Below the pieces are notes generated by a model. The model was not told the origin of the DNA and made no database searches. It saw only the letters and a list, made by a program, of their open reading frames with translations. The translations under genes were made by a program, and so were the position numbers. A DNA stretch of 64,000 bases from Planctomycetota bacterium (lineage in GTDB: Bacteria; Planctomycetota; PLA2), in contig JAJFFF010000051.1 of the NCBI GenBank assembly GCA_021776785.1, positions 1-64,000 on the forward strand, given 5' to 3'. Positions 16,301-19,919 of this stretch are shown here, one piece after another (position 1 is the stretch's first letter; each line of letters starts with the position of its first letter).

Positions 16301-16674
16301 TGCGATTGGTTCCTTGGCGGTGGATTCTAGCTGTCGGCTACCATCGGATTGTGTGTGCGAGCGGTGCGTTGCGCGCCGACATGCGGTGCGGCATCGTCCG
16401 GGCTGGTTTCAGCGGAGGCGTGTCGGAGTCGCAATCGTTGACGGTCTGCGCGCTACCGCTTGGCGCGACGTCGATGACGAATAGTCCGGTTGGCGGCAAG
16501 GCGACGGCGGTGTTTCGTGTGGATGGGATCGGTGGCAAAGTCACCTTTGTCCATTTTCGAAAACGTTATGGCCCTGCGCGGCAGCCCCCGAAAAACCAAG
16601 CCACAATGTGATTGACAACGGTCACGGGAACGGCGAGCCTGCGGACGGTAAATGGTCGCTCGAATGGAGGTCTC
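16301..16674. other. Intergenic region between divergent GT4 and PEP-CTERM genes
   Basis: About 374 bases. It contains stretches (TTCAGCGGAGGCGT near 16408 and AATCGTTGACGGTCTGCGC near 16433) that recur slightly altered near 17462 and 17514, beside copy B of the 45-bp repeat. This suggests an old duplication of the region around the GT4 gene start. No gene or clear promoter was seen. Confidence 0.45.
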
Positions 16675-17352
16675 GTGAAGCATGTTCTTTTGGTCCTGGG
16701 TGCGCTCGTTGCAGGGAGCACGCTAGCAAACGCCGACATCATCCAGTTTGAAGCTCGGGTGGTGCTGGCTCATCGCACGGCTCCCGATATCCTCGGGTCG
16801 ATCGGAGCCGACACGCTCGGGCTCGACGGAGCGACTCTCGTTTTCCGCGCGGCGTTCGACACTTCCGACACCTACATCGATCGATTCAATCAGCCGTTCG
16901 TTGAGTCCATCGCGAACTCGCTGACGATCACGGGCGCCTCGGTTGCCTCCACAAACGGCGTGCGCTCCGCTGCCCACGGCGTCGGCCTCTATCCGATCAA
17001 TGGCGGGCAGTACTATCCCTTCAACGGGCTCGACACAACCTGGGACGTCGAAGGGTCCACGCTGAGCTTGTTGAGTTTGACCAACGCCGTCCCGGGCATC
17101 TCGGTCGGCGACAACGTCGCGCTCTCTCACTTCTCAACGACCCAGCGCATCCGCCCGGCGCAGTTTGATTACGGGCTGTTCTTCGTCGGCTCCCTTGTGA
17201 CCTCGGCTCGGTACGACGCCACGTCGTTCTCGGCCAGCGTAACGCCGATTCCGGAGCCCGGCACGCTGACGCTGTTGAGCTTAGGCGCCGTCGTCGCAAT
17301 CTGGTTGCGACGCCGTCGAGCCGTCCACGCACGAACCGCCACCGACCTCTGA
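16675..17352 (+). CDS. PEP-CTERM sorting-domain protein
   Basis: 225 aa. GTG 16675 is preceded by a strong GGAGG 4 nt away, so I prefer it to a longer upstream frame. It has a signal peptide (KHVLLVLGALVAGSTLANA), a ~175-residue beta-rich mature domain rich in Ser/Thr/Ala, and a C-terminal PEP-CTERM signal: PIPEPGTLTLLSLG, a hydrophobic helix, then RRRR. Such proteins are exported, processed at the PEP motif by an exosortase (not encoded in this window) and placed on the cell surface or in the exopolysaccharide matrix. A stable hairpin follows the stop codon. Confidence 0.88.
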   Translation: MKHVLLVLGALVAGSTLANADIIQFEARVVLAHRTAPDILGSIGADTLGLDGATLVFRAAFDTSDTYIDRFNQPFVESIANSLTITGASVASTNGVRSAAHGVGLYPINGGQYYPFNGLDTTWDVEGSTLSLLSLTNAVPGISVGDNVALSHFSTTQRIRPAQFDYGLFFVGSLVTSARYDATSFSASVTPIPEPGTLTLLSLGAVVAIWLRRRRAVHARTATDL

Positions 17353-17525: not shown

Positions 17526-18611
17526 TCAGCGCATCAGTGCCGCGCGGGTCTTTTCGGTGTACTCGGAGGGGAACGGTTTTTTGACGCCGCGTGCTTTGTG
17601 GATGCGCCGGGCCAGCGCCACGCACGCGCGCATCGCTCGCGCTTCGCCTTGCTCGGGGATCGGCGGGTAGGCTGTCTTGAGGGCCAGGTCCACGCTCTTG
17701 CGTGCGCTCTTGTGCCGCTTGGCGATCGCTGTGAGCGTGTCCACCGCGGCGCCGGTGAGCATGTTGAAGTATTTCCCCGATTGCGCCCAGGGCGCGACGA
17801 CCGCGACCGAGTTCGCGGTCCCGCACCGCGCGAGCGCCTGGACGGCGCGGGAGCGCAACACGTTGGGGTTGCGGCTCGGCGCCGGGTTCGCGACCAGCGC
17901 CTCAAGCGCCGGCGCTGCCTGGGCGGTGCCGGAGTCTTTTAAGACGCCCAACACGACGTAGCGAAACGGGTCGTTGGGCACCGCGAGCAATGCCACCGCG
18001 CGTTTTGCGATGACCGCCGGTTTTTTCTCGGCGAGATGGTTTAGAGCAAGGGTCCGCACGACGATGTCGTCTTGGTCGAGCAGTTTCTGAGCGCGCGCGG
18101 TCGTCGGCCGCGCCGTGAAGTCGCGGGCGCGCTCTTCGGCCGCCCGCACCTTTTCCCATGCGGTGAGCGAGCGATGCGGTTTGATATTCGTCGCATTCAC
18201 CGCCGCGAGAAACGACTCCACCTTACGTCCGGTCTGCGCCACGACCTTCATCGTCGCCGGGTCGACGAGAAAGATCTGGGGCCAACTCGAAACGCCGAAA
18301 CGGATCGAGATGCGCTCCGCGGCGCGGTCGTCTTTGCTCTTGGAGAAGTCGCGGTAGACGTATACCCAAACGATCTTGTCGTAAGTTTCTTTCAGGGCAG
18401 GATTCGGAAGCAACTGCTTCTCGACGACGACGCAATGGGGTCAGTACGTCTTCGTGAAGTAGCAAAAGATCGGCTTGCCCTCCTTGAGAGCTTGTTTTTG
18501 CGCAGCGACGAGGTCGCGCTGCCAGGGCGGGCCTTCCGGAGGAGTTTCACTCCCGGCGACAGCCAGCGAGCAAAAGAGCAGAAGCGAAAGCGAGCAAGCA
18601 ACACGACGCAT
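17526..18611 (-). CDS. Candidate selenoprotein: secreted thioredoxin-like domain (U-P-H-C) plus HEAT-like repeats
   Basis: 361 aa if the in-frame TGA at 18441-18443 is read as selenocysteine (residue 57). ATG 18611 starts a signal peptide (MRRVACSLSLLLFCSLAVAG). The thioredoxin fold is plain on both sides of the TGA: GKPIFCYFTKTY, then Sec57, then PHC (Cys60). After that come the helix VVVEKQLLPNPALKE, the strand IVWVYVYRD and the cis-Pro loop GVSSWPQIFLVDP. The TGA therefore occupies the first position of the CxxC redox motif, where selenocysteine occurs in many redox selenoproteins. Residues ~130-275 are alpha-helical HEAT/Armadillo-like repeats. A SECIS-like hairpin lies just downstream of the TGA. 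A periplasmic thiol/selenol oxidoreductase role is inferred. The alternative is a sequencing error or nonsense mutation of TGC/TGT; the intact flanking frame argues against decay. Confidence 0.75.
18404..18424 (-). promoter_or_regulatory. SECIS-like hairpin downstream of the in-frame TGA
   Basis: On the minus strand a hairpin of 8 bp (TCG, bulged A, GAAGC; loop AGTT; GCTTC, CGA) lies inside the coding sequence. The loop starts 26 nt after the TGA. Bacterial SECIS models require a loop about 16-37 nt after the UGA, an upper stem of at least 4 bp and a G within the first two loop bases; all three hold. SelB binding is inferred. Confidence 0.65.
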
Positions 18612-18722: not shown

Positions 18723-19919
18723 TTGCTCGCCCGTTACTATCCTTGCTTGGCCCAACACCGCACTACTCTTCTTTTGCTCGCCGTGCCGGTGATCGTCGTC
18801 GCTTTGACGCTCTTGTGGCCCGATGAATCCTTCGCGACGAGGGCGACCGACCGACAAAGTTCTTTGGACTCGGTTGTGCCAAGTCGTTTTGCCGAAGGCA
18901 TTGAGTCAGACCGCGCCAAAGCCGCCGCCGGAACTCGACCCAAGTCGGCCGACAACTCGCAGAAGACTGGTCCGCCCCTCACCGGCGTCGTCGGGTTGTT
19001 GCCCGAAGACGTTCGTGGCACGGGTACCGCCGCGTTGCACCTGCGATTGCATGACGCCGAGAGCGATCGGCCGATTTCCACGCGCGTTCGTGTTTGGCGT
19101 CTTGGCGCGCCTGCGGTCGGGCCGTGGGGTGCCGGGGATCACATTCAGTTCGACGGCGTCGTTGCGGCCAAGGGGCTCCGCGTTGTGAAATGGCCGGTGG
19201 GGCGCTACCGGTTGAGTTGCTCGCGGCAGCGGCGGGGGGCTTTCGATCCTCCAGCTTTCACGGTCGCGGCTGGGAACAACGACGTCGTGGTCTTGCTTCG
19301 CATGCCGCGCTCTCTGGATCAACGCGCTCGACTGTTTGACCGTCATGGCGCCGAGGTATTCACCGCGAAAGTTGGCGGCATCGGCGGCGCAACCGCATCG
19401 CTTGAATACCACGCGCCGGATTGGGCGAATGTGCGCGCGCATCGCAACCGCGCCTGGAAGTTACAAGTTGGTGCTTCCGCCAGCGACCAGGGCAGTTCCA
19501 AGAGGCGTCAACAGACGCACGCTGGGAACGGGTTCTCGCTCGGTGCCATCCCCGAGCGCACTCGCCTCGGTGGCCACTACCGGTCCACCTACGTTTATCC
19601 GGCGGGTCGCTCCCGTGTTGTTTGCCGGAGGAACAGCAAGTCTGCACGCGACGGCGATCTGTTCGTCGGCCCGACGATTTCTCTCGCGAAACTGTTTGCG
19701 CAAGTGACCACTCCGGCAGGAGTCGGCGTGATGAAAGCCGGGGCGCGCGTCTACGCCGTTGCGGAAGCCGTTCGAGTGAAGTCCGAGGCGCCGGCCGCCG
19801 CTGCCCTTCGTCTCCCCATCAAGCTACGAGTAGAACTCCGCGGTCACGAGTTGCTCGAACTCGTATGGAACGTCGGCGACCCTTTTCCGGTTCGACGTCT
19901 TCGCGCGAAGCGTCCCTGA
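18723..19919 (+). CDS. Membrane-anchored hypothetical protein
   Basis: 398 aa from TTG 18723. There is no ATG before the hydrophobic N-terminal helix (RTTLLLLAVPVIVVALTLLW), so the start is uncertain; other TTG and GTG codons lie just downstream. The rest is a low-complexity linker (residues ~35-90), then beta-rich sequence with LHLRLHDAESDRPISTRVRVW, GRYRLSCSRQRRGAF and FTVAAGNNDVVVLLRMPRS. This is reminiscent of the carboxypeptidase-regulatory-like sandwiches seen elsewhere in the window. It is divergent from the Sec-thioredoxin gene. No function is assigned. Confidence 0.65.
   Translation: MLARYYPCLAQHRTTLLLLAVPVIVVALTLLWPDESFATRATDRQSSLDSVVPSRFAEGIESDRAKAAAGTRPKSADNSQKTGPPLTGVVGLLPEDVRGTGTAALHLRLHDAESDRPISTRVRVWRLGAPAVGPWGAGDHIQFDGVVAAKGLRVVKWPVGRYRLSCSRQRRGAFDPPAFTVAAGNNDVVVLLRMPRSLDQRARLFDRHGAEVFTAKVGGIGGATASLEYHAPDWANVRAHRNRAWKLQVGASASDQGSSKRRQQTHAGNGFSLGAIPERTRLGGHYRSTYVYPAGRSRVVCRRNSKSARDGDLFVGPTISLAKLFAQVTTPAGVGVMKAGARVYAVAEAVRVKSEAPAAAALRLPIKLRVELRGHELLELVWNVGDPFPVRRLRAKRP

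Follow-up and report, generated by a model that had tools for sequence, protein, structure and literature searches.

A planctomycete thioredoxin-HEAT protein with an in-frame UGA almost certainly read as selenocysteine in a UxxC motif

A gene in a 64,000-nucleotide stretch of DNA from a Planctomycetota bacterium (hereafter the window) harbours a TGA, in frame, where the first Cys of a C-x-x-C-type redox motif would stand, which raises the question of whether this codon ends translation, results from an error or specifies selenocysteine (Sec). A preliminary description had claimed that this TGA splits an otherwise continuous protein. Translation with TGA left open bears this out, as it yields a single gene of 361 codons (termed Trx-HEAT; Table 1) whose sole interruption is the TGA at codon 57, the terminal codon being a TGA as well. 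The gene is located on the minus strand, a detail absent from that description. The local protein context of the UGA is PIFCYFTKTY-U-PHCVVVEKQLLP, and the motif TKTY-U-PHC, with U in place of the first Cys, reads as had been described. The gene stands alone between a divergent upstream neighbour (18723-19919, plus strand) and a convergent downstream neighbour (16612-17352, plus strand). The latter ends in PEPGTLTLLSLGAVVAIWLRRRR, a PEP-CTERM-like sorting signal. Comparison of the gene neighbourhood across the family brought up no conserved (operon) partner and thus does not reveal the substrate. In one group of members from the same order, genes for an ABC transporter, a glycosyltransferase, a formiminotransferase-cyclodeaminase and a KDPG-aldolase are found nearby, which are not common to the other members and look like plain synteny.

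Table 1. Features of the Trx-HEAT gene, given as positions in the window.
Feature	Position	Strand	Remarks
Complete selenoprotein gene	17526..18611	-	ATG to terminal TGA, UGA-Sec at codon 57
Predicted signal peptide	18555..18611	-	residues 1-19, cleavage AVA/GSE by inspection
Thioredoxin_7-type domain	18192..18524	-	about residues 30-140; Pfam and predicted fold
UGA read as selenocysteine	18441..18443	-	codon 57; conserved TGA column
Active-site U-P-H-C motif	18432..18443	-	residues 57-60
Candidate bSECIS hairpin	18404..18424	-	lower stem UCG/CGA, bulged A, upper stem GAAGC/GCUUC, loop AGUU
Invariant Pro111	18279..18281	-	invariant column of alignment A2; directly before strand 112-117
HEAT-like alpha-solenoid	17589..18164	-	about residues 150-341; profile search and model

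If the TGA really ended translation, or had arisen through faulty sequencing or assembly, the locus would represent a pseudogene or encode a 56-residue peptide followed by a 295-residue protein. The list of open reading frames does contain a 295-amino-acid frame (18413..17526) initiated by a TTG at 18413. This alternative start, however, sits within the thioredoxin fold, a conserved part of the protein, and the TGA itself is strictly conserved. In 119 related genomes a search found 14 close relatives, a number that includes the gene of the window; each is interrupted by exactly one TGA. End-to-end alignment places it in the same column in 14 of 14 orthologues, within the context [FLM]TK[TK][YH]-U-P-[HS]-C. 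Throughout this 14-row alignment U, P and C of UPHC are invariant while H is replaced by S in one row; in the scan of named genomes, locus L062 shows an Ala at this position. The latter scan, which covered about 85,000 named species, was run with only the part after the UGA as query and returned 22 loci, all from Planctomycetota and all 22 with the TGA. Since the query did not include the UGA column, this result could favour neither Sec nor Cys. Likewise, in a profile search of 392 planctomycete genomes all 19 full or fragment matches reaching the site have the TGA. A scan of viral contigs revealed no relatives. At least 24 distinct sequences, taken from genomes that were assembled independently, share the TGA in this column, a recurrence well beyond coincidence. 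The part behind the UGA is under purifying selection, with dN/dS values of 0.13-0.48 for the eight closest pairs (300-344 codons). A stop or an error would, moreover, leave the covarying hairpin described below without a role. The TGA at all 22 loci of the named-species scan refutes this alternative for practical purposes, and we grant it virtually no probability.

A twentieth carrier among the 392 genomes, G042, is devoid of the whole Sec/thioredoxin core. In its copy (locus L025, 1186-1836) an in-frame gap takes out the Sec codon and the SECIS together with most of the domain of thioredoxin type, which leaves the signal peptide and a shortened HEAT part, and the genome possesses selA and tRNA-Sec. 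The gap reflects either a real loss or a mis-assembly.

The preliminary description had proposed inspecting homologues for a Cys at the TGA column. No Cys is present at this column in any close-family member covering the site, be it among the 22 loci of the named-species scan or the 19 matches in the 392 planctomycete genomes. In contrast, distant thioredoxin_7 paralogues from the same phylum do carry Cys there (FTGSDW-C-GWC and others), which identifies the Sec column as the catalytic one. The close family is Sec-only, with Cys confined to the distant thioredoxin_7 paralogues.

The genome from which the window derives (5.0 Mb in 57 contigs, 92.6% complete) contains the entire machinery for Sec incorporation: selA (2.9e-126), selB and selD (4.9e-109) are clustered in one stretch of contig C27, and a tRNA-Sec scoring above the Rfam cut-off, with the anticodon UCA according to ARAGORN, is located on contig C45. 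SelD of this organism is itself encoded by a TGA-containing gene (locus L088, 1501-2427) with the classical GG-U-AAKL motif (GGUAAKL). Within the 392 planctomycete genomes selA is present in 241, namely in 19 of the 20 Trx-HEAT carriers compared to 222 of the 372 non-carriers. In one carrier, G004 (77% complete, 760 contigs), selA, selD and tRNA-Sec were not detected, probably due to missing sequence. G005, a genome of the same order (92% complete), shows a tRNA-Sec, whereas neither selA nor selD nor the Trx-HEAT gene was found, a pattern which suggests either gaps in the assembly or a lineage on its way to giving up Sec. The complete Sec system also speaks against the notion of a genome-wide reassignment of UGA (to Trp or Gly) or of its non-specific suppression, by which residue 57 would be something other than Sec. 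We found no specific support for this notion, which is at odds with the single internal UGA per gene always occupying the redox position. It was rejected because UGA terminates the Trx-HEAT gene and those of many orthologues, and we deem it hardly conceivable.

Sec insertion in bacteria is expected to be directed by a hairpin, and a candidate for such a bSECIS element follows the UGA. Its sequence, UCG-A-GAAGC-AGUU-GCUUC-CGA, comprises nucleotides 20-40 counted from the U of UGA (17-37 nt after UGA) and forms a 5-bp upper stem and a 4-nt AGUU loop (18412-18415) with G as second loop base, 25 nt after UGA. It complies with the published bacterial SECIS model, which calls for a distance of 16-37 nt, an upper stem of 4-16 bp and a loop of 3-9 nt with a G among its first two bases (PMC13188914). 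A search of the region around the gene against Rfam gave chance matches only, as is expected in view of the diversity of bSECIS elements, and the single-sequence folding-energy z-score of -1.95 is modest and unconvincing alone. The strength of the case lies in covariation. Across 24 sequences, 16 cells with changes on both sides of the hairpin are observed compared to 5.9 expected, and the covariation score amounts to 0.230 compared to 0.111; none of 500 shuffles reaches either the count or the score of the hairpin, and shifting the register lowers both. The key pair links the first base of codon 8 (Lys AAG, Glu GAG or Gln CAG) to the third base of Leu codon 11 (CTT, CTC or CTG), at which changes are silent; the two bases complement each other in 19 of 23 sequences (p ~1.5e-5 by permutation). 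On the protein tree the A-U type of this pair was gained or lost at least five times, two of these events being forced by well supported branches. The four non-complementary sequences form, as judged by eye, shifted hairpins, with GGUC in the loop in L051 and L054. In addition, Leu codon 10, inside the hairpin, is TTG in 21 of 23 sequences, compared to 10% of the Leu codons elsewhere in Trx-HEAT genes; the binomial probability of about 2e-19 is too small given the relatedness of the sequences. The earlier proposal that this organism decodes UGA as Sec is accordingly backed by the machinery, the conserved TGA column and the covarying hairpin. As far as sequence evidence reaches, we consider the bSECIS-directed reading of codon 57 as Sec, within a UxxC thioredoxin domain, to be shown or nearly shown.

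The preliminary description had further ascribed to the protein a signal peptide ahead of the TGA and a thioredoxin-HEAT architecture. The former looks plausible on visual inspection: in the members read, the start codon, in one case GTG, lies 54-66 codons before U and is followed by a conserved hydrophobic core and an A-x-A/GS cleavage site, while residues 2-19 of the predicted model show low pLDDT. As to the latter, Pfam, a profile search against the PDB and the predicted fold agree. The N-terminal part scores above the cut-off of 27 bits with both PF13899 (Thioredoxin_7, 36 bits) and PF13098 (Thioredoxin_2, 32.5 bits). For the single protein, PF13646 (HEAT_2) reaches 25.0 bits and thus stays just under its cut-off of 27.7. 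A solenoid is nevertheless indicated by both profile and model, and we therefore name the C-terminal part HEAT-like rather than filing it as PF13646. Compared against the PDB, the family profile matches HEAT-like chains (alphaRep, deoxyhypusine hydroxylase) with a best E value of 2.7e-13 and DsbH (2ju5) at 1.8e-4. The AlphaFold2 model calculated from the 14-row alignment (mean pLDDT 91.8, pTM 0.87) begins with a thioredoxin fold, in which residue 57 immediately precedes helix 58-67, and continues as a helical solenoid from about residue 150 to 341. The invariant Pro111 is presumably the cis-proline expected of the thioredoxin fold. The nearest solved folds of the N-terminal part are ERp19, DsbD-gamma and DsbH, while the C-terminal part resembles alphaRep and TOG/HEAT proteins; none of the listed structure matches spans both parts in the arrangement of Trx-HEAT.

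Taken as a whole, we consider it very probable that Trx-HEAT is an exported selenoprotein composed of a thioredoxin_7 domain with the pair Sec57-Cys60 and a HEAT-like solenoid. SelA, SelB, SelD and tRNA-Sec would decode the UGA under direction of the downstream hairpin, and the product would be exported with the catalytic UPHC motif in its thioredoxin_7-type domain, followed by the solenoid. The cell envelope is its most likely place of action, where it would serve one or a few protein partners as a thiol/selenol-disulfide oxidoreductase, with Sec attacking or donating a disulfide, Cys60 resolving it and the HEAT solenoid supplying partner binding. Periplasmic export, redox direction, dithiol-type chemistry and the role of the solenoid are what we infer from these features. 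With regard to direction, the fold is like that of the reducing domains DsbD-gamma and DsbH, whereas E. coli DsbA has PH as its dipeptide; our preference is that a protein partner would be reduced or isomerised. As a rule, selenols lend themselves to reduction or to peroxidase reactions, a preference which speaks against a Sec protein that mainly introduces disulfides as DsbA does. UPHC does share its PH with the CPHC motif of E. coli DsbA (PMC5193440), yet this dipeptide varies within the family (PH, PS, PA), and the closest folds are reducing domains of the DsbD-gamma/DsbH kind, whereas DsbA carries an inserted helical domain. Mainly DsbA-like oxidation thus seems unlikely to us, at perhaps one chance in a few. 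Still less probable is a Sec-dependent peroxidase or repair reductase acting, for example, on methionine sulfoxide or peroxides instead of a dithiol oxidoreductase acting on protein disulfides. Several thioredoxin-fold Sec proteins are indeed peroxidases or repair enzymes (PMC13188914), but UxxC together with an invariant resolving Cys and the invariant Pro111 represents the layout of a dithiol oxidoreductase, and none of the Prx, GPx or Msr profiles was hit in the Pfam search.

Trx-HEAT is not the only TGA-containing thioredoxin-like gene encountered. Beside the tRNA-Sec gene on contig C45 of the window's genome (G000), the minus strand of locus L003 (about 1730-2155) encodes a thioredoxin that has a hydrophobic stretch near its N terminus and reads VEFTGDW-U-PACRSL through a TGA; it is a probable second selenoprotein of this genome. 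Among other genes of the phylum, loci L034 (1501-1773, minus strand) and L035 (1501-1827, plus strand) are thioredoxin_7-like with one in-frame TGA and the motif YFTRSY[AS]P-U-PPC, and two further thioredoxin_7-like genes of the window's genome (C1:198342-198671 and C46:9762-10067) contain one TGA each. These genes may represent further selenoprotein families.

Use of Sec in Planctomycetes is already known, as a study of selenoproteins in this group shows (PMC4807772). The claim that Trx-HEAT would be a new selenoprotein family or an unusual member has held up, as no curated selenoprotein family matches. In NCBIfam (June 2026) no model comes near its cut-off, the best score for the window's protein being 20 bits against 300, and none of the 14 members gives a strong match. 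Within our search of open-licence papers, the terms HEAT, PF13899 and Planctomycet- are all absent from the text of the 2026 inventory of selenoproteins in prokaryotes (PMC13188914). We read Trx-HEAT as a Sec-only, Planctomycetota-restricted UxxC thioredoxin-like selenoprotein of new architecture with no Cys form so far. A review states that Cys homologues exist for nearly all selenoproteins, and deep-Sep retains new candidates by their Cys homologues (PMC12013277); the family may have stayed unlisted because discovery leans on such homologues. It is conceivable, and we offer this tentatively at somewhat below even chances, that Trx-HEAT is an obligate-Sec family without a viable Cys form, which occurs only in Sec-decoding Planctomycetota and escapes searches requiring Cys homologues. 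In that case nothing could take over the function of selenium in this enzyme, and current inventories may lack further Sec-only families. The family adds a strongly supported selenoprotein to a phylum with selA in about 60% of the sampled genomes; lacking Cys forms, it lends itself to the question of why Sec, not Cys, is kept, and it suggests that entire families can escape discovery methods built on Cys/Sec pairs. Genes of this type would come out of standard annotation split or truncated.

Among known systems, two NCBIfam models match Trx-HEAT weakly. NF041199, a Trx7/PDZ domain-containing (seleno)protein, shares the Thioredoxin_7 domain and gives a weak local match in all 14 members (20.3 bits for the window's protein against a cut-off of 300), but has PDZ and, according to the inventory, a CxxU motif, whereas Trx-HEAT combines UxxC with HEAT. 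NF041383, the VPGUxxT thioredoxin-like (seleno)protein type 2, is likewise a thioredoxin-like selenoprotein and matches weakly over residues 30-130 (19.7 bits against 275), its UxxT motif, however, being devoid of a resolving Cys. The thiol:disulfide interchange selenoprotein of the inventory (PF13098, UxxC; PMC13188914) corresponds to Trx-HEAT in Pfam superfamily and motif, yet is a broad entry with no HEAT fusion listed, while for Trx-HEAT no Cys form was found. DsbA (CPHC) has the same PH between its redox residues but belongs to another thioredoxin subfamily; Trx-HEAT has Sec for Cys and no inserted helical domain, its thioredoxin_7 domain being continuous in the model. Trx-HEAT further resembles the periplasmic thioredoxin-like domains of the Thioredoxin_7, Thioredox_DsbH and DsbD-gamma type (PF13899, PF13098; PDB 1sen, 2fwf, 2ju5), with which it has in common the fold, the export signal, a redox motif starting the first catalytic helix and an invariant Pro at the cis-Pro place. 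It is not fused to the membrane domain of DsbD, and differs from all of these domains in carrying Sec for the first Cys and a C-terminal HEAT-like solenoid.
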